Positions 14,965 to 34,981 of a DNA stretch of 43,544 nucleotides are shown here, in pieces; the first letter of the stretch is position 1; every line of letters starts with the position of its first letter. Both the position numbers and the translations under genes were made by a program. Origin of the DNA: Paludibacteraceae bacterium (GTDB lineage: Bacteria > Bacteroidota > Bacteroidia > Bacteroidales > Paludibacteraceae); the NCBI GenBank assembly GCA_017628395.1, contig JAGBZD010000053.1:1-43544 (forward strand). Direction: 5' to 3'. The notes under the pieces are model-generated. The model made no database searches, was not told the origin of the DNA, and saw only the letters and a list, made by a program, of their open reading frames with translations.

Positions 14965-14986
14965 GATCGCCCTTTGGGCTGTAGAT
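14965..14986 (+). repeat. Palindromic GATCG-type repeat unit (intergenic copy)
   Basis: The sequence GATCGCCCTTTGGGCTGTAG followed by AT contains the hairpin GCCC-TTT-GGGC. It is nearly identical to a unit inside uvrA (31413-31433 region, GATCGCCCTACGGGCTGTAG on the coding strand). It sits between the rsmE stop and the PAP2 start. Confidence 0.65.
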
Positions 14987-14991
14987 AAGAG

Positions 14992-15603
14992 ATGATAGAT
15001 AAATTGATACATATTGACACGGAGATACTATTGGCTATTAATGGCTGGCATGCTCCTTGGGCGGATACACTGATGTGGATCATTTCAGCGAAGGCGACAT
15101 GGATTCCGCTGTATTTGCTATTGATTGGCTTGCTCGTTTGGCGTTACCGTCAACCTGCTCCTACGCCTATCAAGTGGCTACAGAAAGTGCCTGCTTGCGT
15201 GGTAATGATTGTTGCAATTGTAATGGCGGTGGGGCTTGCAGACTTCATCGCTTCGGGTATATTAAAAGACCTTGTGGCGCGTCCACGCCCTACGCGCGTA
15301 CCTGAATTAGAAGGTGTATTGCACTTGGTAAATGGGTATAAGAGTGGACGATATGGCTTTGTGAGTAGTCATGCAGCCAACACCATGGCGTGCGCGTTGC
15401 TCTTTTCGCTGATTTGGCGCAATAAAATAGCCACCTGTAGCTTGATGCTTTGGGTGGCTGCGAATTGCTATAGCAGAATGTATCTTGGGGTACATTATCC
15501 CACAGATATTATGGGTGGTCTTATTGTTGGTGCGCTGGTGGCGGTGGCAATGTATCAAGTCCTTCGGGCGTTGGGTGAGGTGTCGCGTGTTGGTGTGGAG
15601 TAA
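14992..15603 (+). CDS. PAP2-family phosphatase
   Basis: A 203-residue inner-membrane enzyme with five or six helices and the three PAP2 phosphatase motifs: KDLVARPRP (92-100), SSHA (125-128) and SRMYLGVHYPTD (161-172), facing the periplasm. Such enzymes dephosphorylate undecaprenyl pyrophosphate, phosphatidate or lipid A; substrate is not deducible, but an undecaprenyl pyrophosphate role would fit the cell-wall theme. Last gene of the operon from 9385; its final 83 bp overlap the antisense gene at 15521-15958. Confidence 0.92.
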   Translation: MIDKLIHIDTEILLAINGWHAPWADTLMWIISAKATWIPLYLLLIGLLVWRYRQPAPTPIKWLQKVPACVVMIVAIVMAVGLADFIASGILKDLVARPRPTRVPELEGVLHLVNGYKSGRYGFVSSHAANTMACALLFSLIWRNKIATCSLMLWVAANCYSRMYLGVHYPTDIMGGLIVGALVAVAMYQVLRALGEVSRVGVE

Positions 15604-15958
15604 GCCAATTGCAGGGGTGTTGAGGGGAACGAGGTGTGTGATTCAGTTGGCGATTCATAAAAGCTGAATACTGCTCGGGCGATAGGATGTTTTTCAGTTC
15701 CTCTTGCATTTGCACCATACGCTGTATAGCCTCGTTTCGAGTATGGCTAATGTTGTGTAGCATGGCATATTTGAGATGCATGCGAAACAATGTGTCGCAT
15801 AGGACACTGTCCGTAATATGCAACTCGCGAATGAGCATTGCTGTTTGCTTATGGGCAATGTCTTCCGCAGTACGACACGGAGGCATACTCCTTTGAGCTG
15901 CAAGAGAGAGTGCCAATATCACACCAACGAATATGAACCAAAAACGAATCATGCTCAT
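15521..15958 (-). CDS. Small secreted protein, Spy/CpxP-like (tentative)
   Basis: A 145-residue exported protein starting MSMIRFWFIFVGVILALSLA with a clear signal peptide (an ATG two codons later, at 15952, is equally possible). The mature part is helical; RMVQMQEELKNILSPEQYSAFMN resembles the LTxxQ-type helix of periplasmic Spy/CpxP-like chaperones and Bacteroidota proteins of that kind. The last ~40 residues are rich in Pro and His and are encoded antisense to the PAP2 3' end, so the tail may be a late extension. A longer frame reaches 16279 but runs through the divergent permease gene. Confidence 0.6.
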   Translation of the reverse strand: MSMIRFWFIFVGVILALSLAAQRSMPPCRTAEDIAHKQTAMLIRELHITDSVLCDTLFRMHLKYAMLHNISHTRNEAIQRMVQMQEELKNILSPEQYSAFMNRQLNHTPRSPQHPCNWLTPHQHATPHPTPEGLDTLPPPPAHQQ

Positions 15959-15991
15959 TTTAAGATAACTACAGAGATAACCACAAAAATT

Positions 15992-17233
15992 ATGCCAAAA
16001 GATATGTCTAAGTATCATACTGAATGGAAAATCGCAAATCGTTTGTATTTTTCTGCGGAGGGAAATACGCGTTCGTCGCGTCCTGCGGTGCGAGTTGCAT
16101 TGGGAGGAATTGTGATTGGTGTAGTGGTGATGATAGTGGCGATTAGTGTGGTTGTGGGATTCAAACAAGAGATTGTGCAAAAGGTGGCTGGCTTCGGTAG
16201 CCATATTCAAGTAGTGAATTTCGACAATAACTCCACCTACGAACTGCAACCTATTTATGTTTCCGATTCGTTGCTTCAAGTGCTACAAGCCATTCCGCAT
16301 GTAACGCATGTGTCCAGTTTCGCTTCTAAGCCTGGTATTATAAAGACAGATAGTGCTTTTCAGGGTATTGTGTTCAAGGGTACGGATTATTGGGCGTATT
16401 TCACGCAGAACTTGACCGAGGGTACTCTGCCCCAAGCCAGCAATGAAGTGCTGATTTCTACTACCTTGGCAAGGCAGTTGCAATTGCATGTGGGAGATAA
16501 CTTCTTATGCTATTTTATTCAAGAGGACTTGCGCGTAAGGCGTTTGTATGTAGCTGGTTTGTACAATACATGTATGAGCGAACTTGACCAACTATTCATT
16601 TTGGGCGATATTGCTTTGGTTCGCCAACTCAATGGGTGGAAAGACAACCAAGTGTCTGGAATCGAGATTTTGGTAGAAGATTTGCAATACTTAGACCAGA
16701 CCACTCATTCCGTGTATTTTGCCACCGCCAATCGATTGGATGATAATGGTAATGCGTTATATACACAGAACTTGCAGCAACTCAATCCTAATATCTTTGG
16801 TTGGCTTGATTTGTTGGACATGAATGTGTTGATTATTATTGTGTTGATGCTTGCGGTATCGGGATTTAGTATTGTTACGGGGTTGATTATCTTGATTTTA
16901 GATAGTGTGTCGTTCATAGGAACGCTAAAAGCACTTGGAGCGAATAACCTATTTATTAGGCGTATTTTTATTTATCAAGCTATTTTATTGATAGGAAAAG
17001 GAATGTTTTTGGGAAATCTCATAGGTTTGGTTATTTGTGCCTTGCAGTATTTCACTCGTATTATACCTTTGGATGCCGCATCCTATTATGTCAGTTATGT
17101 GCCAATGGCTTTCCCTTGGGGCTGGTGGATTTTGCTCAATGTGGGTACACTTGTGGTGTCGTGGCTAATTCTTTTGGCTCCGTCTGCTATTGTTACGCAG
17201 ATTAGTCCTGCCAAAGTCATGCATTTTGAATAA
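15992..17233 (+). CDS. ABC transporter permease of the LolC/LolE (FtsX) type
   Basis: Inner-membrane permease of 413 residues. One N-terminal helix (RVALGGIVIGVVVMIVAISV) is followed by a ~220-residue periplasmic MacB-like domain and three C-terminal helices of the FtsX domain, with the coupling sequence LIILILDSVSFIGTLKALGA and a terminal ISPAKVMHFE. This layout is shared by LolC/E, which pull lipoproteins out of the membrane. No ATPase lies nearby; the partner must be encoded elsewhere. Start ATG 15992 gives MPKDMSKYH; an ATG at 16004 is also possible. Only 33 bp separate it from the divergent small secreted protein. Confidence 0.87.
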   Translation: MPKDMSKYHTEWKIANRLYFSAEGNTRSSRPAVRVALGGIVIGVVVMIVAISVVVGFKQEIVQKVAGFGSHIQVVNFDNNSTYELQPIYVSDSLLQVLQAIPHVTHVSSFASKPGIIKTDSAFQGIVFKGTDYWAYFTQNLTEGTLPQASNEVLISTTLARQLQLHVGDNFLCYFIQEDLRVRRLYVAGLYNTCMSELDQLFILGDIALVRQLNGWKDNQVSGIEILVEDLQYLDQTTHSVYFATANRLDDNGNALYTQNLQQLNPNIFGWLDLLDMNVLIIIVLMLAVSGFSIVTGLIILILDSVSFIGTLKALGANNLFIRRIFIYQAILLIGKGMFLGNLIGLVICALQYFTRIIPLDAASYYVSYVPMAFPWGWWILLNVGTLVVSWLILLAPSAIVTQISPAKVMHFE

Positions 17234-17260
17234 AGACATTGTCTGTTAGAAAGTAGAAGA

Positions 17261-18199
17261 ATGAAAGACTTGTTGACAAAAGTAGTAGTTCCTAATTCGG
17301 GAAAGAAGATAGGGTACGATGACAAACTATTGTTGTTGGGGTCGTGCTTTGCAGATAATATTGGTGAGAAGTTTGGCGCGCATTATTTTCAGATGCTTTC
17401 CAATCCTTATGGCACACTCTACAATCCTGCCTCTATTGCCGCTATTCTTTCCCCCATTGCCAATAGCCAATCTCCAATATCCAATCCCCCAATCATAGAG
17501 TGGGGTGGCTTGTGGCATTCTATGCTGCATCATGGTTCTTTCTCACATTCCGACAGAGCTCAGGTGTTGCTGCGTTGTGAGCAGAGTAGAGAATTGTTGC
17601 ATGCTTTTTTGCAAGAGGCAACAGTTGTGATAGTTACTTTTGGCACAGCATGGGTGTATGAGTACGAGGGAAAGGTGGTGTCTAATTGCCACAAGATGCC
17701 TGCTAATCGTTTTGTCCGCAGGCGCTTGAGTGTGGATGAGATTGTGGCAATGTGGCGACCTCTGTTGCAGGCCATGCCCGATAAACACTGGATTTTTACG
17801 GTTAGCCCGATTCGCCATATCAAAGATGGACTGCATGAGAACCAACTCAGCAAAGCTATTCTGCTGCAAGCGGTAGAAGAATTGGTAAATAAGGCGAATA
17901 GCGATAAGGTGGGGTATTTCCCTTCGTATGAGATACTATTGGATGAACTGCGCGATTATCGCTTTTTTGCAGAGGATATGGTACACCCTTCACCCGTAGC
18001 GGTCGAGTATATTTGGCAGCGATTTGTAGATACCTACATGACTGCTGACACGCAAAACGAGATGCGTACTTTGTATCAATTGTGGCGTGATCGTCATCAT
18101 CGTTTCTTGCATCCTGAATCCGATGAAGCACAGCTCTTTACACAGCAAATAAAAACGCGACTGCAACTCTTGCAATCGCGCTATCCATGGTTGGAATAA
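17261..18199 (+). CDS. GSCFA family protein
   Basis: A 312-residue cytoplasmic protein with the defining motif GSCFADNIG at residues 27-35 and further family blocks NPYGTLYNPASI, VTFGTAWVY, SPIRHIKDGLHENQLSKA and FPSYEI, plus AEDMVHPS. GSCFA proteins have an SGNH-hydrolase-like fold (Ser in GSCF, Asp/His in DMVHPS), so an esterase or acetyl-transfer role is plausible but unproven. Residues 63-80 are low-complexity, encoded by a CCAATA-type repeat. The C-terminal codons also form the terminator of the opposite operon (18151-18180). Confidence 0.87.
   Translation: MKDLLTKVVVPNSGKKIGYDDKLLLLGSCFADNIGEKFGAHYFQMLSNPYGTLYNPASIAAILSPIANSQSPISNPPIIEWGGLWHSMLHHGSFSHSDRAQVLLRCEQSRELLHAFLQEATVVIVTFGTAWVYEYEGKVVSNCHKMPANRFVRRRLSVDEIVAMWRPLLQAMPDKHWIFTVSPIRHIKDGLHENQLSKAILLQAVEELVNKANSDKVGYFPSYEILLDELRDYRFFAEDMVHPSPVAVEYIWQRFVDTYMTADTQNEMRTLYQLWRDRHHRFLHPESDEAQLFTQQIKTRLQLLQSRYPWLE
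17447..17503 (+). repeat. CCAATA-type oligomer repeat inside the GSCFA gene
   Basis: Successive units CATTGCCAATAGCCAATCT and CCAATATCCAATCCCCCAAT encode the Ser/Pro/Asn-rich stretch at residues 63-80. The same CCAATAGCCAATA string appears (opposite strand) in the nucleotidyltransferase gene near 7683-7697. Confidence 0.65.
18151..18180 (-). terminator. Terminator of the prfB-SDR operon, inside the GSCFA coding sequence
   Basis: On the minus strand CGCGATTGCAA - GAG - TTGCAGTCGCG forms an 11-bp stem (one G-U pair) with a 3-nt loop, followed at once by TTTTT. It lies 26 nt past the SDR stop codon and within the last codons of the convergent GSCFA gene. Confidence 0.85.
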
Positions 18200-18206
18200 T
18201 CTTTGT

Positions 18207-18965: not shown

Positions 18966-18975
18966 ATCGTATGGA

Positions 18976-20082: not shown

Positions 20083-20108
20083 ATATTTCTAATTTGTCAA
20101 TTTGGGCA

Positions 20109-20140
20109 CAAAGGTACTAAAAATATTGCACATATGCAAA
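20109..20140 (-). promoter_or_regulatory. Promoter of the prfB-SDR operon
   Basis: Minus strand: TTTG (20140-20137), 20 nt, TACCTTTG (20116-20109), about 27 nt before the prfB ATG. Full consensus match. Confidence 0.85.
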
Positions 20141-20159
20141 TCTTTTGTGTAATTCCTCA

Positions 20160-20330
20160 CACGCATGCGAGCAATTACGGGTTCATGATGGGTTTTTGAC
20201 GGGTTGATAGTGGCACATCGTTTGCCTATCGGTGGCATATCCCTATCTTGTGTATGTCTTTTTTGTGGAGGGGGGCAGGTGTTTGATCTCTTCGGAAACC
20301 ACTCGGTTACCACTCTGATGTTCACTGTAC
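20160..20330. repeat. Intergenic stretch with 11-nt-period degenerate repeats
   Basis: Between the prfB promoter and the next terminator no gene is convincing. The DNA contains GGGTT three times at 11-nt spacing (20179-20206 area: GGGTTCATGAT, GGGTTTTTGAC, GGGTTGATAGT) and a second 11-mer pair CACTCGGTTAC/CACTCTGATGT near 20300-20325. A weak minus-strand frame across it has no recognisable content. Confidence 0.45.
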
Positions 20331-20336
20331 CCCCAT

Positions 20337-20380: not shown

Positions 20381-20404
20381 TTTTGTCATTGCAACTAACA
20401 CTTT

Positions 20405-21770: not shown

Positions 21771-21771
21771 G

Positions 21772-23071: not shown

Positions 23072-24361
23072 TTATTGCTTATGTGTCATAATATCAAGAA
23101 TGAGGTCGTCGGTGACCTTCATGCCGTCGTGTCCGATGCGTGTGAGATTGCGGATAGTGCGGTCAATATCGTCCTCCACGATACCTTCGGTAGAATCGGC
23201 ATACGAGTGTTGCATCGCCAAATACGCACTGAAAATTGCCGTAGCCACACCGCTGGTGACCTTCAACGCACAGCCCGGTTTAGCACCGTCGCAAATCATA
23301 CCTGAAATGTTGGCAATCATGTTCTTGATAGCATAAGTAATCTCCTCGTAGTTGCCGCCCATGAGGTAAGTGATACCCGCTGCTGAACCTGTGGCTGCCA
23401 CCACGCAACCGCATAATGCTGACAATCTTCCAAGCGACTGCTTGATATAAATAACGGTGAGATTGCTCAGCGCCAGCGCGCGAAGCGTTCGCTCTTCGTT
23501 GCAATTATTCTCCTTCGCATACAAATACACAGGAATTGAACATGAAATGCCTTGATTACCCGAGCCAGAGTTGCTCATCACTTGCACCATGGCACCCGAC
23601 ATACGCGCATCGCATGCGCCACAGGTGTAACTGATAATCTTGGTGAAGAGGGTATTGCCAAAGAGCTTTTTCATTTCGGGCGTTGCAGTCAGTGTATTTG
23701 CTCGCAACAGTCGCCCCAGACCGTGACCGTATTGTTCGGCAAAGGATGTTTCGGCGGCAGCGGTGTTCATTTGTGCTCCCTCTAAGAGAAAAGCCAACTC
23801 TGAGGTATTCACGCTGGTCGCAAAATCATATACGCGGCGGAGGTTTAAGCCCTGTGGGCTATGGGACGCTTCGCTATTGGACGCTGGGCTAAGGGACGCT
23901 TCGCTAAGGGATATGGGCGAGGTAACAAAATGGGTATGCTCATCCATGATAGTGGCTTGCGCCGTTTGCTCGCCTTTGCGCACTTCGGCATGGATATAGA
24001 GGATACTGGGTGCCTCGTAGTTGATATGAATCTGTGCAGGCACGCGCAACATGTAGTCTTTGGCATACGCAACGGATTCAGGAGTAGCATCGCGCAAGAC
24101 TTCCAACAGATACGCAGACTTGCCCACCGTAGCACCCAGCGCAATCGCGATTGGCAATCCCGTCATACCCGTATTGGGAATACCCACAGCAAGGGCATTC
24201 TTATAGACATTCTTTGAGAGGTAAACCGTTATCTCATCGGGTTCGCAGCCAAGGAGTTCTTTGGCGCGAGCCACACACAATGCCACTGCAATTGGCTCTG
24301 TACAACCAATAGCAGGGATAACCTCGCGGCGGAGTAGTTGAAGAAGTTCTGGATTAGTCAT
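23072..24361 (-). CDS. L-cysteine desulfidase / UPF0597 family (CyuA-like)
   Basis: A 429-residue cytoplasmic protein of the serine dehydratase alpha-like family (UPF0597, CyuA/YhaM), which releases sulfide, ammonia and pyruvate from L-cysteine using an iron-sulfur cluster. Family marks are IGCTEPIAVALCVARA at 18-33, VYKNALAVGIPNTG at 52-65, YTCGACDARMSGAMVQVMSNSGSGNQG and GMICDGAKPGCALK, which contain the conserved cysteines. Residues ~147-172 (Ser/Pro/Glu/Ala-rich) are a low-complexity insertion produced by a CGCTTCGCT-type repeat. Its start overlaps the glycosyltransferase stop by 8 nt. Confidence 0.87.
   Translation of the reverse strand: MTNPELLQLLRREVIPAIGCTEPIAVALCVARAKELLGCEPDEITVYLSKNVYKNALAVGIPNTGMTGLPIAIALGATVGKSAYLLEVLRDATPESVAYAKDYMLRVPAQIHINYEAPSILYIHAEVRKGEQTAQATIMDEHTHFVTSPISLSEASLSPASNSEASHSPQGLNLRRVYDFATSVNTSELAFLLEGAQMNTAAAETSFAEQYGHGLGRLLRANTLTATPEMKKLFGNTLFTKIISYTCGACDARMSGAMVQVMSNSGSGNQGISCSIPVYLYAKENNCNEERTLRALALSNLTVIYIKQSLGRLSALCGCVVAATGSAAGITYLMGGNYEEITYAIKNMIANISGMICDGAKPGCALKVTSGVATAIFSAYLAMQHSYADSTEGIVEDDIDRTIRNLTRIGHDGMKVTDDLILDIMTHKQ
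23850..23915 (-). repeat. CGCTTCGCT-type repeat inside the cyuA-like gene
   Basis: On the plus strand three or four 18-20-nt units follow one another: GGGACGCTTCGCTATT, GGACGCTGGGCTAAG, GGGACGCTTCGCTAAG. They encode the in-frame stretch around SLSEASLSPASNSEASHSP (residues ~150-169). Confidence 0.75.
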
Positions 24362-26217: not shown

Positions 26218-27461
26218 AAACTACAAATAATCTCCAATAACTTCGGATACAAACTGCGATGGTATATATTGCCCGCAGGGCTATTATTATGCCACAAAAT
26301 TACCACTTCCCCTGCGTTCTGATGTATCTTTTCAAACAATCGCTGGCACTCAAAATATGCCTCATCCTCGCTGAGATTCATATATTGGGGATTACTCAAA
26401 GTACAATCCATCACCGTCAGTGGGTGGAGTACCAGATCGGTCAGTGTCATCGTCTTAGGATTAATCCAGCGTACTGGTCGGGTGGTCTGCAAACGGAAAC
26501 CAACTTGGTCCGGGAACATCATTGTGAAGTCATCGGTTATTCCTATATTTACTAACATTTGCATGTCATCTATTGAGCAACGAAGATAATGACTACGATG
26601 GTACAAATCCTTAATTTTTATACTATCTCCGTCTCTAACACCCTCTTTGTTTACTATATGTGTGAATACAACCACATTGGTCATTTTTTCCCCATAGTAA
26701 CTCGAATGTAATCCTATTTTGGCACCACTGTTTTCTATCAACATTTCTGCGGTCTCAAAGTCCTTGCCATCAAGTTTATATTGCGGATAATCATATCCTT
26801 TTCCCATGGTGTCTTTGACAAAGTAGATACATTCTGCTCTTTCCACTGTCTTGTCTTGCGCAATCAGCCACGAGAAGGTGAAGGCTGGATCATTGTGAAT
26901 ATCCTTTAATGAAGCCAATACTTTGCGCCATTGACCGCGCAATATGCCTCCCATAGCTCCGCGCCAATGACGATACTGGGCAACAGAATCCACATCATGT
27001 GTCAGATAGATTTGGCTAAACGATGGGGTAGGCAGCGGCAAATCCAGTAGTTTCATCAGCATGCGTGCATACTCGTCCACCGTAGGAATCATCAAACGGT
27101 TGTTTTGACCCAAAATGGAATACTTAGCAGCAAATCGCCCGTGCTCATCGCGCTGCGTGTTAATCAATTCCTCCGCCCGCGAGATAAAGAAGAAGGTGTT
27201 ATAGACAATATCCGTGCGAATAACATAGCGTGTAATCGCTTCATCTTCAGGCGAAGCCGATCCACCAACTACAGCGTAGCGTTCTACAGCGCAGCGATCT
27301 AATTCTGGCATCACAATCTTTTTCCCAAATTGTCCATTAGGCACAATCACCACGCGGTAGTTCTGCCACTCCGTCTCGTCAGCCGTATAACCTACTTGCT
27401 TGGCAGCCTCTGCGTTGCCATAAAGCAAGAATTGGATAATGTAATCAATAATCTCTTTCAT
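26214..27461 (-). CDS. Polysaccharide deacetylase-like protein
   Basis: A 415-residue cytoplasmic protein starting at ATG 27461 (MKEIIDYIIQF). The first ~120 residues are an accessory region; from ~155 the NodB-like fold begins with YLTHDVDSV (catalytic Asp and metal-binding Asp), then IGLHSSYYGE (metal His), HYLRCSIDDMQMLVNIGITDDFTMMFPDQVGFR and a final VVILWHNNS. Members hydrolyse N-acetyl groups from glycans, or modify polysaccharides under synthesis. Residues 54-73 are a repeat-encoded insertion. One base separates it from the ABC-F stop codon. Confidence 0.8.
   Translation of the reverse strand: MKEIIDYIIQFLLYGNAEAAKQVGYTADETEWQNYRVVIVPNGQFGKKIVMPELDRCAVERYAVVGGSASPEDEAITRYVIRTDIVYNTFFFISRAEELINTQRDEHGRFAAKYSILGQNNRLMIPTVDEYARMLMKLLDLPLPTPSFSQIYLTHDVDSVAQYRHWRGAMGGILRGQWRKVLASLKDIHNDPAFTFSWLIAQDKTVERAECIYFVKDTMGKGYDYPQYKLDGKDFETAEMLIENSGAKIGLHSSYYGEKMTNVVVFTHIVNKEGVRDGDSIKIKDLYHRSHYLRCSIDDMQMLVNIGITDDFTMMFPDQVGFRLQTTRPVRWINPKTMTLTDLVLHPLTVMDCTLSNPQYMNLSEDEAYFECQRLFEKIHQNAGEVVILWHNNSPAGNIYHRSLYPKLLEIICSL
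27246..27300 (-). repeat. Palindromic GATCG-type repeat inside the deacetylase gene
   Basis: Coding strand: ATCGCTGCGCTGTAGAACG, CTACGCTGTAG, then GATCGGCTTCGCCTGAAG. It aligns unit by unit with the copy in uvrA at 31394-31445. It encodes residues 54-73 in frame. Confidence 0.75.
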
Positions 27462-27462: not shown

Positions 27463-29331
27463 TTATTCTTCTTCACTCAAGATTTCCCATTCATATAGGC
27501 GTTGTTCCATCTCGCGTTTGATATGTTCATATCGTTGGAAGTTCTCCGCCGTTTGTTGTGCGACATCGGTCAGTAGTGCTTCTATCTCTTGTTGCTCCTG
27601 TTCCAACTTTGCAATAGCTGCTTCCACATCGGCAATCTGTTTCTCTTTCTTGCGACGCGCTGCTGCGGCGGCCTTCTGCGCCGCATAATCCTGTTTCGCA
27701 GAAGAGCTCTCGCCTTTCGCCTCATCGCCTTTTCGCCTCATCGCCTCATCGGTCTTCCTCTCCAATTCTTGGAGATTATCAATTCGCTTGCTGCGCAAGA
27801 AATCATAGATGCCGCCAAGGTGTTCTTTCACTTTTCCGCCGCCAAACTCATACACCTTGTCCACCAGTCCGTCCAAGAAATCGCGATCGTGGCTCACACA
27901 AATCACTGTGCCGTTAAACTCCTTCAACGCCGCTTTCAGCACATCCTTCGACTGCATGTCGAGGTGGTTAGTTGGCTCGTCAAGAATCAACAAGTTACAT
28001 GGTTCCAGCAGCAAACGAATCATCGCCAAACGACTTCTCTCGCCACCCGATAGCACTTTCACTTTCTTCTCCGATGCTTCGCCACCGAACATAAACGCAC
28101 CCAATATATTGCGTATCTGTGTGCGAATATCGCCCACCGCTACATTGTCAATCGTCTGGAATACAGTTAGTTCACCGTCCAACAATGCCGCTTGGTTCTG
28201 CGCAAAGTACCCAATCTTCACATTATGCCCAATTTTCAACTGACCCATATAATCCAACTGCCCCATGATACAGCGCACCAGTGTCGTCTTGCCTTCGCCG
28301 TTCTTACCCACAAACGCCACTTTCTCGCCTCTACGAATCGTGAAGGTCGCGTCTTGAAACACCGTATGCTCGCCAAAATCCTTGCGCAAATCTTCCACTA
28401 TCACGGGGAAGTCGCCGCTGCGTGGCGCAGGTGGAAAACGCAAACTCAAGCGCGAGTTGTCTTCTAGATCCACCTCCAATCGCTCCAACTTCTCCAGTTG
28501 CTTAATGCGCGACTGCACTTGCACCGCTTTGGTGGCTTTATATCGGAAGCGCTCAATGAATTCCTCCGTCTCCTGAATCATTTTCTGTTGATTCATATAG
28601 GCGCGAACCTGTTGCTCATGACGCTCTTGGCGGAGTACCTTGAACTGTGAGTAAGGCGCATTGTAGTCGTATATGCGTCCAAGCGTAATCTCAATCGTTC
28701 GTGTCGTCACATTGTCCAAAAAAGCGCGGTCGTGACTCACCAATACCAGCGCACTACCATTGTTCTTGAGGAACTCCTCCAGCCATTGTATTGACTCTAT
28801 ATCCAAGTGGTTAGTCGGCTCATCAAGTAGCAGCAAGTCAGGGTGTTGCAAGAGTATCTTTGCCAACTCAATACGCATACGCCAGCCACCCGAGAACTCC
28901 GAACAAGGGCGGTCGAAATCCTTCCTTTCAAAGCCCAAACCAATAATCGTCCTGTCCATCTCCGCGATAAATCGTGCCTCCTCGCCTGATATTCCTGCCT
29001 CTAAACTGTAGGCGCTTGCGCCGTCCTGTAGCGAAGCGTTCTCTACACTATCGCTCTTGTGAGCGATGACTGACATCACATCCTCCCTCAGCGTTTTCCC
29101 GTCCACATGCATCATCACCTGTGGCAAGTAACCGATGGTCAGGTCGCCCATCTTGCTGATGCGACCCGATGTAGGAGTCTCCACTCCCGCCAACAATCGG
29201 AGCAGAGTCGTCTTACCCGCACCGTTCTTGCCTACCAACGCCACTCTGTCGCGCGGGTTAATCAAAAAAGTAATATCGTCCAATATCGGACGCGAGGAGT
29301 ATTCTATGCTGAGATGTTCTACGCTTATCAT
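27463..29331 (-). CDS. ABC-F family ATPase (Uup/EttA-like)
   Basis: A soluble 622-residue protein with two ABC ATPase domains and no membrane part, so a ribosome-acting ABC-F factor rather than a transporter. Domain 1: Walker A GKNGAGKTT at 34-42, signature FSGGWRMRIELA, Walker B LLLLDEPTNHLD. An interdomain linker (RQERHEQQVRAYMNQQ) follows. Domain 2: GKNGEGKTT, LSGGERSRLAM, LLILDEPTNHLD. The C-terminus is a charged coiled coil as in Uup. Residues ~91-112 and a linker near 530-545 are repeat-encoded. Its ATG overlaps the uvrA stop (ATGA). Confidence 0.93.
   Translation of the reverse strand: MISVEHLSIEYSSRPILDDITFLINPRDRVALVGKNGAGKTTLLRLLAGVETPTSGRISKMGDLTIGYLPQVMMHVDGKTLREDVMSVIAHKSDSVENASLQDGASAYSLEAGISGEEARFIAEMDRTIIGLGFERKDFDRPCSEFSGGWRMRIELAKILLQHPDLLLLDEPTNHLDIESIQWLEEFLKNNGSALVLVSHDRAFLDNVTTRTIEITLGRIYDYNAPYSQFKVLRQERHEQQVRAYMNQQKMIQETEEFIERFRYKATKAVQVQSRIKQLEKLERLEVDLEDNSRLSLRFPPAPRSGDFPVIVEDLRKDFGEHTVFQDATFTIRRGEKVAFVGKNGEGKTTLVRCIMGQLDYMGQLKIGHNVKIGYFAQNQAALLDGELTVFQTIDNVAVGDIRTQIRNILGAFMFGGEASEKKVKVLSGGERSRLAMIRLLLEPCNLLILDEPTNHLDMQSKDVLKAALKEFNGTVICVSHDRDFLDGLVDKVYEFGGGKVKEHLGGIYDFLRSKRIDNLQELERKTDEAMRRKGDEAKGESSSAKQDYAAQKAAAAARRKKEKQIADVEAAIAKLEQEQQEIEALLTDVAQQTAENFQRYEHIKREMEQRLYEWEILSEEE
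27703..27755 (-). repeat. GGCGAAA/GATGAGG heptamer repeat inside the ABC-F linker
   Basis: Coding strand: GATGAGGCGATGAGGCGAAA, AGGCGATGAGGCGAAAGGCG. It encodes the Glu/Ala/Lys/Arg-rich stretch DEAMRRKGDEAKGE in frame ahead of the C-terminal coiled coil. Confidence 0.7.
29001..29075 (-). repeat. Palindromic repeat inside ABC-F domain 1
   Basis: Coding strand units ATCGCTCACAAGAGCGAT, AACGCTTCGCTACAG and GGACGGCGCAAGCGCCTACAG, each containing a short hairpin (GCTC/GAGC, GGCGC/GCGCC). They encode residues ~91-112, SDSVENASLQDGASAYS. Confidence 0.7.
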
Positions 29332-32243
29332 ATAAAACTGTCTTTCAATTCGTTTAATGCTCTACCTGTATAACTATCCGCACACTCCATAATCTGCTCT
29401 GGCGTGCCTTCTGCCACTATCCTTCCGCCTTCATCGCCTCCCTCTGGTCCTAAGTCTATAATATGGTCGGCTGCCAATATCACCGATGGATTATGCTCAA
29501 TCACCAACACCGAGTGTCCTCTGCTAATCAGCGCATTCAGCGCTTTCAACAGCACTGCCACATCGTGGTGATGCAAGCCCGTTGTGGGCTCATCAAAGAT
29601 GAAGAGGGTAGGTGTTGCGTTCTCTTGTGCCAAGAACGATGCCAACTTCACGCGCTGACTCTCGCCACCCGATAAGGTACTACCTGCTTGACCCAACTTC
29701 ACATAGCCTATACCTACATCCTGCAACGGCTTCAACCTGTTGACAATCTTCTTGCACGCCGCATCCTCCGCAAAGAACTCTATCGCCTGATTGACTGTCA
29801 TCTCCAGCACATCGTATATGTTCTTTTCGCGGTATAGCACATCCAGCACATCCTGCTTGAAGCGTTTGCCCTTGCAGTGCTCGCACTCCAACACTATATC
29901 CGCCATAAACTGCATCTCTATCCGTATCGTTCCTTCACCTTGGCAGGCTTCGCACCTACCACCTGGCGTGTTAAACGAGAAATGCGATGGCGTGAAGCCC
30001 AACTGTTTGCTCAATTGCTGCTCCGCGTACAATTTGCGTATCTCGTCGTATGCCTTCAGATAGGTCACAGGGTTCGAACGCGATGATTTGGTCAATGGGT
30101 TCTGATCCACAAACTCCACATTATGAATCAATTGCAGACTGCCCCTTAGACTACCAAAGTCGCCCGTTCGTTCGGCTATACCGCCGTAATGCTTCTTCAG
30201 CGCAGGGTATAGCACCTTCGTAATCAGCGACGATTTGCCGCTGCCGCTGACACCCGTCACCACAGTCATCACATTCAGCGGGAAGCGAACATTGATATTC
30301 TTCAAGTTGTTTTCAGTTGCACCGATAACCTCGATGTAGTTATTCCATTGGCGTCTATAAGGCGGAATAGAGTAGGTGAATTTCTCTATTTTCGGTGCGC
30401 CCGCATATACCAGTTCGCCGCCATGGCGACCTGCTTTCGGACCAATCTCTATCGAATAATCCGCTGCTTTCTGTATCTCATCATCGTGCTCTACGACCAC
30501 TATCGTATTGCCCAAATCGCGCAACTGCTTCAGCACATGTATCAGCCGTTGTGTATCTCTTGGGTGCAAACCGATACTGGGTTCGTCCAGTACATACAAT
30601 GAACCTACCAAACTACTACCCAACGACTTAGCCAAGTTGATTCGCTGTCCCTCGCCACCCGATAAGGTGCTGGACATACGACTCAAGGTCAAATAACCCA
30701 AGCCCACATCCTGCATAAACTGAAGCCGCGAACGAATCTCCGTTAAAAGAGGTTCAAAAGGAGAGAGTTTTCCATCACCTCCTGCAGGGACAGCACTTCG
30801 CCCATCGGGCGACACTACAGCTGCTGTGCAGTCTTTAAACCACTCCGCTAATTGCGTGATCGGCATCTGACTCAACTCCGTAATCGACTTTCCGCCTACC
30901 AACACATACTCTGCCTCTTTCCTCAATCGCTTGCCCAAGCAGTCAGGACATATCGCCTTACCGCGATAGCGACTAAGCATCACGCGATACTGTATCTTGG
31001 CGTATTGTTTGCTCTCCAGTTCGTGGAAAAAGTCGTTCAATCCGTGAAAATGTTCGTTGCCTATCCATAGCAACTGCTTCTGTTCTGCTGTCAGTTCGTA
31101 GTAGGGTGTGTGTATTGGAAAGTCAAACTTATCCGCCGCATAAATCAGTGCTTCGTTCCAAAGCCCCATCTTTTCGCCTTTCCAGCATGCTATGGCTCCT
31201 TCGTATATCGTTTTTGTCTTGTCTGGAACGACCAAGTCTGGGTCTATACCAATCACATTGCCGTACCCGCCGCAGGTTGGACAAGCCCCCAATGGACTAT
31301 TAAAATCAAACAGGTGTTCCGTGGGCTCCATAAATGTAATCCCGTCTGCCTCAAAGCGTTGCGAGAATGTAATAATCTTAGATTCTCTGCCACCTTCAGG
31401 CGAAGCCGATCTACAGCCCGTAGGGCGATCTTCAGCGCAGCAATCTATATTTGGTAACTCCATCACCAACCTGCACTCGCCTTTTCCCTCAAAGAACGCC
31501 GTCTGCACCGAGTCCGCAAAGCGGTTCAGCGTACTCTCCTCGCCATCGGCTATGACGCGGTCAACCAGCAGATAGGTCTTGGCAAGCGCAATGTTGGCGC
31601 ATGCAGGTGTTGTTGAATTTTGTTGTTTATGTTGTTGGATTAAAGCATCTCTGTTGTTTGTCAGCACTTGATTCAGTCGCAGCACTTCCCCCGTTCCATC
31701 CTCTTTGAATTGGTACAAACGAGCAAAGCCCTGTTGCTGCCAAATACCCAATTGTTCCTCAATATTCTCCGCTACGATAGGCGACAATAGCAGCACTTTA
31801 GTCCCTATAGGTTGCTTTCTGAGGCACTCCACCACATCATGCACGCTATGGCGCTTCACCTCCATGCCGCTCACAGGCGAAATGGTTTTTCCTGCGCGCG
31901 CAAACAACAATTTGAGATACTCGTGTATCTCCGTCACTGTTCCCACCGTACTGCGTGGGTTGCGGTTGGTCACTTTCTGTTCAATAGCTATGGCAGGGGG
32001 AATACCGTCAATGAAGTCCACATCGGGTTTCTGCATGCGCCCAAGGAACTGCCGTGCATACGAACTCAGGCTCTCTACATAACGCCGTTGACCTTCGGCA
32101 AACAATGTGTCGAAGGCCAATGATGACTTACCGCTACCGCTGACACCCGAGATAACGACCAACTTGTTGCGTGGAATATCTACGGTTATGTCCTTCAGGT
32201 TATGCGTCCGTGCCCTGTGAATATGTATTACATCTTCGTTCAA
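29328..32243 (-). CDS. uvrA: Excinuclease ABC subunit A
   Basis: Damage-recognition ATPase of nucleotide excision repair, 971 residues against ~940 usual. Walker [10 protein letters not shown] at 33-41 and again [15 protein letters not shown] in the second half; signatures [12 protein letters not shown] and [12 protein letters not shown]; zinc modules [22 protein letters not shown] and CEHCKGKR. Two stretches (residues ~267-285 and ~471-489) are Ser/Pro/Gly/Asp-rich, encoded by palindromic repeat units, and lie outside the conserved motifs, explaining the extra length. A heptamer spacer precedes the ATG. Part of the long minus-strand operon. Confidence 0.97.
30778..30832 (-). repeat. Palindromic repeat inside uvrA, copy 2
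   Basis: Coding strand: CTGTAGTGTCGCCCGATGGG, then CGAAGTGCTGTCCCTGCAGG. It contains the hairpin TCGCCC-GAT-GGGCGA and encodes residues ~471-489 in frame. Confidence 0.65.
31394..31445 (-). repeat. Palindromic repeat inside uvrA, copy 1
   Basis: Coding strand: ATTGCTGCGCTGAAG, GATCGCCCTACGGGCTGTAG (preceding G shared), GATCGGCTTCGCCTGAAG. Three 15-20-nt units, each a small hairpin flanked by GATC and TGAAG/TGTAG. It encodes residues ~267-283 ([16 protein letters not shown]). Confidence 0.78.
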
Positions 32244-32248
32244 ATTTT

Positions 32249-32276
32249 CTTGCCTTTAACCTTTAACCTCTAACCT
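32249..32276 (-). repeat. Heptamer repeat spacer before uvrA
   Basis: Coding strand: TAGGTTAGAGGTTAAAGGTT, then AAAGGCAAG. It fills the gap between the HU-LysM stop and the uvrA start and takes in the upstream stop codon TAG. Confidence 0.75.
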
Positions 32277-33315
32277 ATTTCTTCAAGTATTCCACCGCCA
32301 AACTATCCACCAGTTGCTTCAGTTCGGGGTTATACAGGTTTCTATATTCCTCGCTCAGTTCGGGGATACGAATCACCTGACCTTCACGCACTTGTGCAGG
32401 GTGTTTAATAATGTCTCTATTCGCTTCGTAGATAAACACCCACAAGTCTTTTTGTGCGTAATACTTGTAGGCTATCCATGCCAATCGACTATCTTTTCCC
32501 ACGCGCTCTATGCCGATAAAATTCACATACTCGCGTGGTTTCTCTGCTAATGTCAGTTCTTTCACCTCTACCACTTCTACCACTTCTACCACTTCTTCCA
32601 CTACCTCTGTGGTTGGCTGACAGTCTTGCATACATTGCCACCACTGAATCAATGTTGCACGGAAATACACGCCCGTTCCCACTATACCCAACAGCAACAG
32701 CGCACCAATCACCCAACACACCCACTTGTGGCACTTGCATGTAGGTTCTTGTGTTGGTTCTTCCTTAACAGGTTCCTCCACTGGTTCCTCGATAGGCTCT
32801 TCCACAACTTCTTCTATGGGTTCCTCTACTGGCTCTTCCATTGGTTCCTCTGCAACTTCTTCTATAGGTTCCTCTGCGGGGAGGGGTTGGGGGGAGGCTT
32901 CTGCATTCACCGCTTGTCCTAATTCTGCCAATATATCCACGATTTCATCGGCTTGTTCGCCAAGTTTCTTGATAGGATCGTTGTTGATTTCAGCCATTAC
33001 AGTTTCTGTTTTTGGGTGTTCCATGCGCTTCTCCACGCTCTCTTTGAGCATAGACTCGGCATTGAATATCAGTTTGTTATATCCATCTATGACAAACTCT
33101 TCGCCTGTCGCAATATTTACACTTTTGCGTGGTGCTATGGCTTTCAAAGCGAAAGTGCCAATCCCTTTGATTTTCACTTGCTTATCCTTCTCTAACCCGT
33201 TTAGGGTTGCGTCCACCAAAGCGTTCAAAAATTGCTCAGACTCTTGTTCCGACACATTGGCTATTTGTGCCACGGCCTTGCGCAGTTCTGCCCATGTCAA
33301 TTTTTCGTTTGCCAT
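32275..33315 (-). CDS. Membrane-spanning HU-domain protein with a C-terminal LysM-like domain
   Basis: A 346-residue four-part protein. Residues 1-~100 are an HU/IHF-fold DNA-binding domain (LRKAVAQIANVSEQESEQFLNALV, VKIKGIGTFALK, APRKSVNIATGEEF, FNAESMLKESV). Residues ~145-192 are an acidic Glu/Pro/Val repeat linker (EEPIEE, EEPVEEP units). Residues ~199-218 (VCWVIGALLLLGIVGTGVYF) are one membrane helix. After a second Glu/Val-rich stretch, residues ~271-318 resemble LysM (GKDSRLAWIAYKYY, GQVIRIPEL). The likely topology places the HU domain in the cytoplasm and LysM in the periplasm. It starts 3 nt after a normal HU gene. Confidence 0.85.
   Translation of the reverse strand: MANEKLTWAELRKAVAQIANVSEQESEQFLNALVDATLNGLEKDKQVKIKGIGTFALKAIAPRKSVNIATGEEFVIDGYNKLIFNAESMLKESVEKRMEHPKTETVMAEINNDPIKKLGEQADEIVDILAELGQAVNAEASPQPLPAEEPIEEVAEEPMEEPVEEPIEEVVEEPIEEPVEEPVKEEPTQEPTCKCHKWVCWVIGALLLLGIVGTGVYFRATLIQWWQCMQDCQPTTEVVEEVVEVVEVVEVKELTLAEKPREYVNFIGIERVGKDSRLAWIAYKYYAQKDLWVFIYEANRDIIKHPAQVREGQVIRIPELSEEYRNLYNPELKQLVDSLAVEYLKK
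32755..32885 (-). repeat. GAACCx tandem repeat encoding the Glu-Pro linker
   Basis: On the plus strand GGTTCCTC and CTCTTCCAC-like units (GGTTCCTCTACTGGCTCTTC, GGTTCCTCTGCAACTTCTTC) alternate about ten times with period 12-30 nt. Slippage here would change linker length in steps of three to six residues. Confidence 0.7.
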
Positions 33316-33318
33316 ATC

Positions 33319-33609
33319 TTATTCCTCCTTATTATTTCTGTAAAAATGCTCTTTCACAGCCGCAGTGGGTTTGAAAGTCAATTGCATTTTTTCTGGTATT
33401 TCCGTGCGTTCTTTTGTTTTGGGGTGTACCACGATGCGCGCACTCTTGCGTGTCATTTCCAGCGTACCAAAATTCTGCAATTGTACACTTTTGCCTCCTA
33501 ATAGTTCTTTTTGCAGCACTGCCACGGTCGCATTCAACAACTCTTCCGTGTGTGTCTTAGTCATTGATGTGCTTGTTGCAATGTGTTGAATCAAGTCTTT
33601 CGTTTTCAT
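33319..33609 (-). CDS. HU family DNA-binding protein
   Basis: A 96-residue histone-like protein: helical dimerisation part LIQHIATSTSMTKTHTEELL, then VQLQNFGTLEMTRKSAR with the beta-arm VVHPKTKERTEIPEK and C-terminal FKPTAAVKEHF, the standard HU length. It should bend and compact DNA as a dimer. It sits 1 nt after rimO and 3 nt before the membrane HU gene; a heterodimer between the two neighbouring HU domains is possible (inference). Confidence 0.93.
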   Translation of the reverse strand: MKTKDLIQHIATSTSMTKTHTEELLNATVAVLQKELLGGKSVQLQNFGTLEMTRKSARIVVHPKTKERTEIPEKMQLTFKPTAAVKEHFYRNNKEE

Positions 33610-33610
33610 G

Positions 33611-34930
33611 TTATATTGTTTTTTCTATAACACCATACAAATCAAAGTCCTCTGATTTTATGATAGTTACCTCGTAATAATTTCCTGCCTCTAACCTTTC
33701 GCCTTTCGCCTCTTTCTCTATCAGCACCTCGCAATCCACTTCGGGGGAGTCGTATTGTGTGCGTCCTACATAGTATTCCTCTTCCTCTCTGTCTATCACC
33801 ACGCGTTGTGTTGTGCCCACCATTTGGCTCAAAATCTCCGATGAAATCGACTGTTGTATTGCCATCAGGGTGTCCACGCGTCGTTCTTTTTCCTCTTGCG
33901 GAATATCATCTTTGTAGTGGTTTGCTGCAAATGTCCCTTCTTCTTCGCTGTACGCAAAGGCTCCTAACCGCTCAAAACGCATTGTTTTCACCCACTCACA
34001 TAACTCGTTGAAATCCTCCTCCGTTTCTCCGGGGTGTCCTACCAACAGGGTAGTTCTGATACATATCCCCGGCACTTCGCGGCGTATGCGCGCGATTACT
34101 GCATCTTGTTCTTCGCGGGTGATATGGCGGTGCATTTTCTTCAGCATGTTGTCCGAACAATGTTGAAGCGCAATATCCATGTACTTGCACACATTCTTGT
34201 GTTTTGCCATCACGGGCAGCAGGTCGTATGGAAAATTTGTAGGGTAGGTGTAGTGCAATCGTATCCACTCCACGCCTTCTATCTGCGCCATTTCATCGAC
34301 CAATTGTGCCAATCGGTGTTCGCCATAGAGGTCCAATCCGTAGCTGGACAAGTCTTGTGCAATCACATTAAACTCTTTCACGCCTTCGCCAACCAACCAC
34401 CTCACTTCGTCCAGTATCTCTTCTTTGGGGCGTGATGTAAATTTCCCCGTAATCAACGGTATCGCGCAGTACGAGCAGTACCTATTACACCCCTCCGCAA
34501 TCTTCAGATACGCATAGTGCTTCGGTGTCGTGAGCTTCCTTTCATAATCCTTGCCTTTAACCTCTAACCTTTCGCCTTTAACCTCATTGACAATCCCCAT
34601 ATAATCGAACTTCCCAAACCACTTATCCACTTCGGGGATCTCCCCTGGCAGTTCTTCTCTGTAGCGTTGCGACAGGCAGCCCATTACATACAACTTGCGG
34701 AGTTTGCCTTTTGTTTTTCGCTCCGCAAATTGCAGAATGATGTCTATGCTTTCTTCTTTGGCATCGCCGATGAATCCGCAGGTATTGATGATAGCTATCT
34801 CGCCTTTGGGTGTAGCCGAATCGTGTACGCAGCGATACCCTGCCAATTCCAATTGGCGCATCAATCGCTCTGCGTCCACCAAGTTCTTCGAGCAACCCAA
34901 TGTGATTATGTCTATCTCTCCTTTTCTCAT
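33611..34930 (-). CDS. rimO: Ribosomal protein S12 methylthiotransferase
   Basis: Radical-SAM enzyme that adds a methylthio group to an Asp of ribosomal protein S12. The 439 residues show the UPF0004 domain cysteines (TLGCSKN, NTCGFI, VMGCLSQ), the radical-SAM cluster CNRYCSYC in AEGCNRYCSYCAIPL, and a C-terminal TRAM domain (YVGRTQYDSPEVD). The start is placed at ATG 34930 (MRKGEIDIITLG); ATG 34939 lies inside the palindromic repeat. Two VKGERLE/AKGERLE stretches are encoded by heptamer repeats at 34549-34590 and 33686-33712. Second gene of the recQ operon. Confidence 0.96.
   Translation of the reverse strand: MRKGEIDIITLGCSKNLVDAERLMRQLELAGYRCVHDSATPKGEIAIINTCGFIGDAKEESIDIILQFAERKTKGKLRKLYVMGCLSQRYREELPGEIPEVDKWFGKFDYMGIVNEVKGERLEVKGKDYERKLTTPKHYAYLKIAEGCNRYCSYCAIPLITGKFTSRPKEEILDEVRWLVGEGVKEFNVIAQDLSSYGLDLYGEHRLAQLVDEMAQIEGVEWIRLHYTYPTNFPYDLLPVMAKHKNVCKYMDIALQHCSDNMLKKMHRHITREEQDAVIARIRREVPGICIRTTLLVGHPGETEEDFNELCEWVKTMRFERLGAFAYSEEEGTFAANHYKDDIPQEEKERRVDTLMAIQQSISSEILSQMVGTTQRVVIDREEEEYYVGRTQYDSPEVDCEVLIEKEAKGERLEAGNYYEVTIIKSEDFDLYGVIEKTI
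33686..33712 (-). repeat. Heptamer repeat inside rimO, TRAM region
   Basis: Coding strand: GAGGCGAAAGGCGAAAGG, then TTAGAGGC. Encodes EAKGERLEA in frame. Confidence 0.7.
34549..34590 (-). repeat. Heptamer repeat inside rimO, between UPF0004 and radical-SAM domains
   Basis: Coding strand: GAGGTTAAAGGCGAAAGG, TTAGAGGTTAAAGGC. Encodes EVKGERLEVKGK in frame. Built of the same units as the intergenic spacers at 26190 and 32249. Confidence 0.75.
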
Positions 34931-34935
34931 ATCTT

Positions 34936-34981
34936 CCATCTTCAAGCGCAGCGAACTTCCATCTTCAAGCGAAGCGATCTA
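34936..34981 (-). repeat. Palindromic repeat at the recQ-rimO junction
   Basis: Coding strand: GATCGCTTCGCTTGAAGATG and GTTCGCTGCGCTTGAAGATG, two ~23-nt units joined by GAA. The first unit begins on the last base of the recQ stop codon TAG, so the repeat forms the whole intergenic gap. Confidence 0.78.

Follow-up and report, generated by a model that had tools for sequence, protein, structure and literature searches.

Short hairpin repeats between genes and in frame within conserved genes of one bacterial clade

Background and summary

Small palindromic repeats are inserted both in conserved genes and in the gaps between genes in the window studied here (the whole stretch of DNA that was analysed, 43,544 nucleotides long) and in related genomes. 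Relatives free of inserts exist for ABC-F, MurF and the nagB-cysS gap. The hairpin stems vary while their pairing is kept, and sister species may fill a given slot with repeats that are unrelated to one another. The favoured explanation, with a probability of about 0.5, is that small modules make up REP-like arrays, which spread by copying, gain and lose units by slippage or recombination and are kept in permissive slots.

A first-pass annotation of the window had proposed a single family of such repeats. Its observation is real in the main and partly confirmed, and its interpretation is partly supported. The core idea of in-frame palindromic insertion is supported because relatives without the insert exist. 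These lack the residues in question, and the number of units is above chance. One family does unite four stretches, but the phenomenon is wider than that, because unrelated repeats occupy the same slots in sister species. This refilling, and the variation of the stems, go beyond the annotation.

Small inserts in conserved proteins are normally observed long after insertion. Here, comparison of sister species shows slots in UvrA, RimO, MurF, RuvA and at gene junctions that are empty in some, filled in others, or else enlarged or refilled. Insertion rates and limits are therefore measurable, and the repeats form a natural record of the origin and tolerance of small DNA inserts. They are also a test case for how perfect hairpins arise and are kept up where an RNA function is not evident, and for whether a Y1 transposase is needed for the spread of REP-like repeats.

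Repeat units in the window

A unit is short and consists of a spacer and a mini-hairpin. Units in the window measure 15-23 nt, and those of one related genome (G164; the window's own genome is G000) are longer. Many have a stem of only 2 bp. The sites are collected in Table 1, which also has slots with other short repeats that had been overlooked earlier (rimO 33669-33720 and 34535-34586).

Table 1 Repeat units and insert-bearing slots in the window.
Feature	Position	Strand	Context
Single unit GATC-GCCC(TTT)GGGC-TGTAG	14965..14986	+	Gap separating two genes; G066 is longer by 44 nt, two whole units
Two units	34936..34981	-	Occupy the gap from recQ stop to rimO start; first base on TAG stop codon
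Three units, in frame	27246..27300	-	DUF7033 deacetylase-like gene; different repeats in the slot of G099 and G066
Three units, in frame	31394..31445	-	uvrA, about aa 266-285
Second spacer type GAAC/GGAC-hairpin-TACAG, in frame	29001..29075	-	ABC-F, about aa 95-115, within first ABC domain match
uvrA slot, extra aa 476-489, palindrome CGCCCGATGGGCG	30778..30832	-	Candidate only; similarity to the family at chance level
cyuA-like slot, CCCATAGCC-type repeat and GCGAAGC mini-palindromes	23850..23915	-	G099 different at slot
Additional uvrA slot, aa 198-217	31593..31652	-	Fewer than half of 41 sequences have it
rimO slot, about aa 121-133, purine-rich GGTTAGAGG/TTAAAGG repeat	34535..34586	-	Filled by hairpin units or by different repeats in sister species
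Second rimO slot, about aa 412-425, purine-rich repeat of class GGTTAGAGG/TTAAAGG	33669..33720	-	Repeat class shared with the slot at 34535..34586

Pairwise alignments were compared with 300 shuffles, which puts the lowest possible p at 0.003. The stretches at 14965-14986, 34936-34981, 27246-27300 and 31394-31445 form one family, as had been claimed, with all six pairs beating the shuffles (p 0.003 to 0.023). The deacetylase copy was said to align unit by unit with uvrA, and so it does for the copy of 31394-31445, with a score of 55 where the best shuffle reached 20, but for the one at 30778-30832 the match is at chance level. The latter had been counted in the family. It resembles the other six stretches about as much as chance would give (p 0.047 to 0.66, uncorrected), which leaves an in-frame extra stretch with a palindrome.

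The ABC-F stretch was rightly said to carry repeat units, but these are of the second spacer type. For the cyuA stretch, described as a related form, some weak matches to other stretches turn up when it is reversed (p 0.003 to 0.28 over five of them), and membership is not clear.

Excess over chance

A search of the genome with the unit pattern GATCGCTTCGCTTGAAGATG (at most three mismatches) bears out the repeats, with 13 matches against 1 for the reversed pattern. Of 95 segments bounded by spacers, 24 form a perfect hairpin over their full length; when the flank words are permuted, the figure is 38 of 2331. For three spacer types the perfect hairpins number 48/221, 28/71 and 9/20, with controls at 15/2741, 10/1354 and 6/403; this count comes from 159 loci, including some fetched as array carriers, and the sample of 95 is less biased.

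Looser scans were discarded. Any stem plus TG[AT]AG gives 86 matches against 80 in the reversed control, which is worthless as evidence. A looser unit expression gives 102 against 50, where the reversed control holds genuine tandem arrays. Scanning from spacer to spacer without a hairpin condition yields 76 perfect segments and 103 others, among which are overlaps of two units and sequence of no relation.

Distribution over the clade

In 14 genomes belonging to one clade the word SCTGTAGATCGS was counted 211 times; 10 further members of the genus have a single occurrence between them. Among the genomes searched, the TGTAGATC type is confined to a single clade. The spacer words are TTGAAGATC, TGTAGATC, TATAGGAC and TGAGAGACC, in proportions that vary by lineage. 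The tag at the foot of the hairpin varies too: TGTAG goes with one spacer type, TTGAAG is common in the window's genome, and TATAG/TACAG and TGAGAG are found elsewhere. Outside the clade, at the one locus read, G093 has an array of identical layout with a different spacer.

In a tree of 23 genomes, built on RuvA and MurF with slot columns excluded, G164 and G156 group with the clade at a support of 1.000; both had entered the clade set on account of their repeats, and G062 is missing from the tree. The genomes were assembled from metagenomes and are incomplete (81% for G000). The host genome is Paludibacteraceae-like, and the carriers of the repeats are akin to cattle-gut species.

Slots in sister species

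Unrelated repeats fill one slot in different sister species in the deacetylase, RimO, UvrA and MurF, as well as in the recQ-rimO gap (compared in 10 of the 11 clade genomes searched) and the nagB-cysS gap (12 of 14 genomes). Clean empty sites are present among relatives. The ABC-F slot is short in G014 and the seven outgroup rows. MurF is without an insert in G143, G014 and G058, in an alignment of 22 rows where 7 have no slot residues owing to upstream frame choice. Of the 12 genomes compared at the nagB-cysS gap, 6 are without an array and others have dissimilar ones. In G164 the insert there is about 273 nt long, and repeated blocks distinguish its array from that of G014. Species also differ by entire units, as at 14965, where G066 has two more than the window.

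Twelve of 18 stretches listed from 460 kb of sequence lie within long open frames, including those of UvrA, ABC-F, MurF, RuvA and YgiQ; the 18 were picked by hand, and without the uvrA stretch at 30778-30832 and the cyuA stretch the count is 10 of 16. The claim that intragenic copies keep the frame agrees with 12 out of 12, but it is by this very openness that they were recognised. The Ser/Pro/Gly/Asp-rich loops reported earlier are one reading only, as both orientations and several frames are in use among the copies. None of the 6 non-coding arrays interrupts an open frame of at least 110 aa. They sit in short gaps, each about 30 nt or less from at least one frame end, and arrays contribute TAG stop codons.

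Stems and loops

There are 20 distinct stems of 3-6 bp in which pairing is retained, and 8 of them are reused with two or more spacer types. Orthologous units that were compared have constant stems and varying loops. The GCCC/GGGC stem of the RimO hairpin is whole in G099, G058, G061 and G062, with loops TGC, TGA, TAA and TGA, and the RuvA hairpin of G039 has a changed loop on a whole stem. Pairing also decays: the outer pair is broken in one of two sister copies in G164, the RimO stem is broken in G054, and G.T pairs are found in RuvA of G054 and in the third UvrA unit of G099.

Origin of the arrays

In the favoured explanation, each module is a short spacer word beside a mini-hairpin whose stem varies from unit to unit. 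New sites would be reached by copying of whole arrays or portions of them, and arrays may grow and shrink through slippage or recombination at identical spacers. They would last only where a protein loop, linker or gene junction is tolerant. Template switching during replication is the most likely way in which the hairpins become paired and have their pairing restored, and the pairing would not be retained for an RNA function; a function for the host is presumed to be weak or none. Template switching is described as able to generate and preserve perfect hairpins in the available text of PMC8794818. It remains a proposal here because, among the orthologous units compared, no compensatory stem change was seen at one orthologous position. 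Also against the favoured explanation, a search by eye for target-site duplications at arrays, including the nagB-cysS gap, found none.

A further reading is put forward tentatively. The arrays could be products of a mutational process, template switching and slippage at tolerant positions, and not descendants of mobile elements. If so, the layout would be conserved, spacer words and stems would drift into 'dialects' of each lineage, and slots would be refilled by unrelated repeats.

It is rather unlikely that these are true REP/BIME elements whose mobility in trans depends on a Y1 tyrosine transposase (RAYT), or on some other transposase which has been lost, is missing from the assemblies or goes unrecognised. 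In favour, the foot of the hairpin carries GTAG or a related word, the arrays supply TAG stops, and there are arrays with inverted halves (loci L203, L208 and L214 of G164, and L194, L196 and L197 of G099), with ends AGATC...GATCT in G164 L214 and L203. Whole arrays are duplicated, as in twin arrays of about 170 nt in G164 that are nearly identical, lie 1.3 kb apart and have unlike flanks. The Y1 family PF01797 is over the Pfam cut-off in two array carriers, G156 (1.6e-5) and G093 (1.1e-7), the latter outside the clade; a match in G025 is below it. Yet the stem sequence is conserved within a REP family, whereas stems vary here. Moreover PF01797 has no match in G000 or in 12 of the 14 clade genomes, incomplete as the assemblies are, and the 68 of 178 genus genomes that do match are nearly all array-free by repeat pattern. 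A missing transposase is in itself compatible with REP status, because CGTC REPs reportedly have no dedicated one (PMC3733652, as far as its available text goes).

Loss of the hairpin nuclease SbcCD was considered as a cause and rejected. TIGR00619 is over cut-off in 2 of 24 genus members, with no difference between array-rich and array-poor genomes, and so does not discriminate.

Selected RNA elements at gene ends (terminators, mRNA stabilisers or attenuators), with the intragenic copies as by-products, are improbable. The closeness of non-coding arrays to frame ends speaks for them, and so does the nagB-cysS array of G164, which folds better than its shuffles (z -4.42, 0 of 100). Among four short arrays, three fold no better than shuffles (z 0.06, -0.23 and 1.57) and the fourth has a z of -3.03. 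Most of the listed stretches are however intragenic, and the nagB-cysS gap does without an array in half of the genomes compared and has dissimilar ones in others. The sole Rfam match of the window is a tRNA, which also disposes of a known structured RNA.

It is quite improbable that chance seeds in permissive loops simply grew where they stood as ordinary microsatellites, without any spreading from locus to locus. The tandem periods of 16, 22 and 23 nt would suit such growth, as would the linker slots of RuvA (matched in 22 of 24 genomes, with slot DNA read for 8) and RimO, which vary in length in outgroups as well. But multi-unit words recur at unrelated loci (YgiQ, a GH81-like gene and the recQ-rimO gap), and SCTGTAGATCGS is scattered over many contigs.

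That coding copies might be bypassed in translation or excised from mRNA, as with the bypass elements that exist in some mitochondria, is very improbable: the copies are located within conserved enzymes, but all 12 coding stretches on the list have an uninterrupted frame, and slots hold other in-frame repeats too.

Comparison with known systems

The small dispersed repeats of cyanobacteria, treated by Elhai in 2008, are said to be of hairpin nature. Here they are likened by title only, as very small mobile repeated elements (cited in PMC3116915). REPINs (Bertels and Rainey 2011, PMC3116915) are likewise short dispersed palindromic sequences, but are described there as linked to RAYTs, a family unmatched in 12 of 14 clade genomes here.

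Mitochondrial DNA has repetitive hairpin elements, double hairpin elements and yeast GC clusters, which according to the available part of PMC2800124 are inter- and intragenic, are retained in RNA and have no known adaptive function. By that description they are alike in having hairpins between and within genes, and differ in residing in organelle DNA.

No Bacteroidales family of such repeats is among the literature matches listed, a coverage that is mostly without subscription papers. The BrickBuilt MITE of Porphyromonas gingivalis, likened by description, is also a small named repeat of the Bacteroidales, but is reported as strictly intergenic in the accessible text of PMC10969869. A MITE would have terminal inverted repeats and target-site duplications derived from a parent transposon; the arrays of G164 L214 and L203 end in AGATC...GATCT, inspection by eye showed no duplication, and the parent was sought via PF01797 only.

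GTAG and CGTC REPs are short foot-tagged palindromes that occur as dimers or groups and adjoin gene ends (Di Nocera et al. 2013, PMC3733652). In the accessible parts of that paper, the TAG of a GTAG REP serves as a stop codon, some REPs lie in genes, one uvrA having received two of them, and two Xanthomonas species have different REPs at roughly the same recB site. The arrays described here likewise have a tag at the foot, grouping, gene-end location, TAG stops and some intragenic copies. Unlike these REPs, they have stems that vary under one spacer, a tag that shifts by lineage (GTAG, GAAG, ATAG/ACAG, GAGAG), a majority of listed stretches within genes, and slots that also take unrelated non-hairpin repeats. 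Compared with GTAG REPs and REPINs (short palindromes of 20-40 bp in many copies), the 15-23 nt units conform in size and copy number, and inverted pairs or larger arrays are present in G164 and G099. A conserved family stem is not found, with 20 distinct stems, and neither is an associated RAYT in 12 of 14 clade genomes.

A likeness to Rickettsia palindromic elements (RPEs) had been suggested at first. These insert in frame in unrelated conserved genes, with several families per genome, and are about 150 bp long with a conserved encoded peptide, as the available text of the review PMC10969869 has it. In-frame insertion in unrelated genes is indeed shared, by 12 of 18 listed stretches, but the units here are far shorter and use several frames and both orientations. 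RPE-4 and RPE-6 are themselves classed among the CGTC repeats in PMC3733652, going by its available text. By analogy, the nearest known kinds appear to be GTAG-type REPs, followed by RPEs; the GTAG-tagged class is nearer than the long RPEs because short units stand in arrays, with a GTAG-like foot and TAG stops supplied by the array.

The repeat units

The first-pass annotation had described short repeat units with mini-hairpins, and these are real: GATCGCTTCGCTTGAAGATG, at up to 3 mismatches, has 13 matches in the genome and its reversed control 1. In a 460,530-base sample (the window plus 31 stretches), 24 of the 95 segments of 7-18 nt between AG[AT]TC and TT?G[AT]AG are perfect end-to-end hairpins, against 38/2331 with permuted flank words. 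The same count yields 9/51 in genome G164 (control 36/1657) and 4/39 in G099 (control 54/1977), where G-numbers denote genomes of the same genus. It yields 0/25 in ten loci of 70% relatives, and 1/73 in twenty loci of other Bacteroidota.

The unit-by-unit alignment reported between the deacetylase and uvrA holds for one of the two uvrA stretches; the other is at chance level against all the remaining stretches. The stretch in the CyuA-like gene, put forward as a related form, has weak similarity to the rest.

A unit combines a spacer word with a hairpin. The spacers fall into the types TTGAAGATC (often TTGAAGATGGAAGATC), TGTAGATC, TATAGGAC/TACAGGAC and TGAGAGACC/TGATAGACC. Over 159 clade loci, partly fetched for having arrays, stems of at least 3 bp occur in 48/221, 28/71 and 9/20 segments for three spacer types (controls 15/2741, 10/1354 and 6/403). 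This set holds 20 distinct stems, 8 of which come with two or more spacers. A single array on L146, a stretch of the window's genome, has one spacer and three different hairpins. Many window units have just a 2-bp stem, GC-NNN-GC. Of the three-base loops, 29/58 are TNC, equivalent to GNA on the opposite strand; GNA loops give very stable DNA mini-hairpins. Several G164 arrays consist of two halves in inverted orientation; their outer ends are AGATC and GATCT in loci L214 and L203, and near variants of these in L208.

Other repeats were also seen. The 460-kb sample has strong excesses of GTACCTTTGCA-like words, of the kind found in Bacteroidota promoters, and of several short purine-rich repeats, among them GGTTAAAGG, GGCGAAAGG and GTGTAAAGG. 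The table includes further window repeats.

Coordinates of features in the window and in related stretches
Feature	Sequence	Position (strand)	Observation
uvrA stretch	window	31394-31445	aligns with deacetylase unit by unit
uvrA stretch	window	30778-30832	alignment at chance level
Array	L146	15374-15415	
Array in gap	window	14965	G066 longer by 44 nt, two whole units
rimO open frame as listed	window	34945 (-)	begins at TTG within repeat array
49-nt repeat	window	8965-9013	copies 96% identical; terminator-like palindrome
49-nt repeat, second copy	window	9146-9194	overlaps end of tRNA gene
tRNA gene	window	9177-9249 (-)	
In-frame repeat-like stretch	window	~7900-7920	SPLASSPI, nucleotidyltransferase-like protein (named by eye)
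In-frame repeat-like stretch	window	17450-17495	SPIANSQSPISNPPI, GSCFA-like protein (named by eye)
In-frame repeat-like stretch	window	32866-32895	SPQPLPAEEP, HU-like protein (named by eye)
~105-aa family	L196	6059-6382 (-)	
~105-aa family	L197	2033-2407 (-)	
~105-aa family	L194		
~105-aa family	L210		

Distribution among genomes

G000, the genome to which the window belongs as contig C41, has 2.41 Mb and is 81% complete. By UvrA, the nearest named relatives are L044, L045 and L058, with 83-85% over the best segment; they are metagenome assemblies of Paludibacteraceae recovered from the caecum of cattle or water buffalo. Among 151 genus genomes taken from a larger group, UvrA of G066 and G099 is 96% identical to that of the window, and that of G014, G058, G054, G143, G039, G061, G062, G136 and G025 87-88%; the remaining full-length matches are at 69-75%. 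G164 and G156 were added to the clade on account of their repeats. In a tree built from RuvA and MurF of 23 genomes, with the slot columns excluded, both fall into a single clade with the rest (support 1.000).

Across 178 genus genomes, GAWYGCTNCGCTTGAAG at up to 1 mismatch is found 20 times in G099, 14 in G000, 12 in G164, 7 in G066, 4 in G156, 3 each in G054, G143 and G014, and 0-2 times in the other 170 (reversed control: G099 4, G000 1, G066 2). SCTGTAGATCGS has 211 matches over the 14 clade genomes, 3 to 52 apiece (150 without G164 and G156), and 1 in ten other genus members; the reversed pattern has 0 in all 24. SCTAYAGGACGS peaks in G014 (85, control 3) and shows no excess in G058 (5 vs 6) or G054 (0 vs 2). 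In ten members outside the clade it occurs 0-3 times, except for G049 with 17 (control 15).

SCTGAKAGACCGS is found in G156 (15) and G164 (5), and outside the clade in G093 (16) and G113 (7). Six loci were read: those of G156 and G093 are hairpin arrays, those of G058 and G025 look like short arrays, and those of G113 and G009 are not hairpin arrays.

Arrays in genes and gaps

Long open frames contain 12 of 18 stretches chosen by the analyst from the 460-kb sample, or 10/16 without two doubtful members (CyuA and one UvrA stretch). The genes are CyuA-like, deacetylase, ABC-F, UvrA (twice), a GH81-like protein (twice), MurF, epimerase, YgiQ, RuvA and a 655-aa frame without Pfam match. Intragenic copies are read in either orientation and in more than one frame, so what was inserted is DNA rather than a peptide. 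The other 6/18 are in gene gaps, where they abut frame ends or stand 6 to 104 nt away; none interrupts an open frame of at least 110 aa.

The same slot can hold different content in sister species. Window UvrA residues 198-217, 266-285 and 476-489 are absent in more than half of 41 sequences, as are residues 1 and 180-182. At 266-285, a three-unit array is common to G000, G066 and G099, and an ESGVGN-type repeat to G058 and G025; in G143 a SPNGKGDVLAGGE stretch precedes further repeat-like residues, and G014 has one reversed unit-like 15-mer; G054, G039, G061, G062 and G136 have short unlike residues. The deacetylase slot holds hairpin units in G000, a PTPTPSLKGGE repeat in G099, an EAKGERLEAKG repeat in G066, and a short stretch in seven outgroups.

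The first RimO slot has purine-rich repeats in G000 and G066, and in G039 with another word. The second hairpin type fills it in G099, G058, G061 and G062, where the GCCC/GGGC stem is intact and the loops are TGC, TGA, TAA and TGA respectively; in G054 it is decayed. G143 has a GGCGATTAGGCGATAAGG repeat, G136 two copies of a KPTPNPSLKGREF repeat, and G014 a mosaic including a palindrome.

In ABC-F, G000 has hairpin units in the slot, as do G099, G066 and G143 according to the protein alignment; the slot is short in G014 and in seven rows of the outgroup, of which L053 is masked in another part of the gene. MurF carries a hairpin array in G000 and G099 and lacks one in G143, G014 and G058; G164 has a different repeat there, which is doubled in G156. 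In the RuvA linker, the DNA of G000, G099, G066, G058 and G136 shows a single hairpin unit whose stem is intact, and the protein shows the unit in G143 and G014; G039 has an altered loop, G054 a G.T pair, and G025 another repeat. At one GH81-like site, five units in the window's genome are replaced in G099 by a purine-rich repeat.

Gaps behave likewise. The recQ-rimO gap, found in ten clade genomes, has unlike content in each: hairpin units with several spacer types in G000, G014, G143, G061 and G062, imperfect ones in G039, and other short repeats in G099, G054, G058 and G136. nagB and cysS meet in a bare TAATG overlap in G058, G061, G136, G099, G000 and G143. G164 has an insert of ~273 nt precisely between TAA and ATG, and G014 ~151 nt of this array; unlike arrays occur in G156 (~170 nt) and G054 (~197 nt), and short stretches without hairpin units in G039 (36 nt) and G025 (32 nt).

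The true start of rimO is probably the ATG directly after its array. Separately, G099 and G066 have a multi-copy family of ~105-aa proteins with KYKTLYRYVFRQEW, in small variants, near the C-terminus; each of the four copies seen has a hairpin array at its stop codon.

Possible mechanisms

Units have spread over many loci, loci differ by whole units, slots are refilled with other repeats, and arrays persist in frame or in gaps. One array in G164 was likely copied whole, as two near-identical arrays lie 1.3 kb apart. It is inferred that arrays move by copying, that unit number changes by slippage between spacers, and that hairpin pairing comes from template switching.

Changed loops with intact stems at orthologous units fit template switching, but also selection on pairing. 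Among the orthologous units compared, no compensatory stem change was seen at any one position, and several broken pairs occur. Excerpts of PMC8794818 support template switching in principle as a source of such pairing.

A Y1 transposase has no match in G000 or 11 other clade genomes, whose incomplete assemblies could miss the gene; it is over the cut-off in G156 and below it in G025. G093, outside the clade and with an array, is also over the cut-off. Loss of SbcD (TIGR00619) cannot explain array richness in one clade, since SbcD passes the cut-off in just 2/24 genus members, G049 and G054, with weaker matches in 16 more.

Comparison with known elements

GTAG REPs have conserved stems and an association with RAYT, unlike the arrays here. 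According to excerpts of PMC3733652, they share dimers and groups, a location beside stop codons with TAG serving as stop, a double insertion in uvrA, a single same-site case, in recB, and to some extent a tag-like foot; CGTC REPs are described there as being without a dedicated transposase. Rickettsia elements share the in-frame insertion, but excerpts of PMC10969869 describe them as ~150 bp long with a conserved peptide. Mitochondrial hairpin elements share the habit, as far as excerpts of PMC2800124 go. Given these shared and differing features, the arrays work like REPs, yet are not assigned to a REP family.
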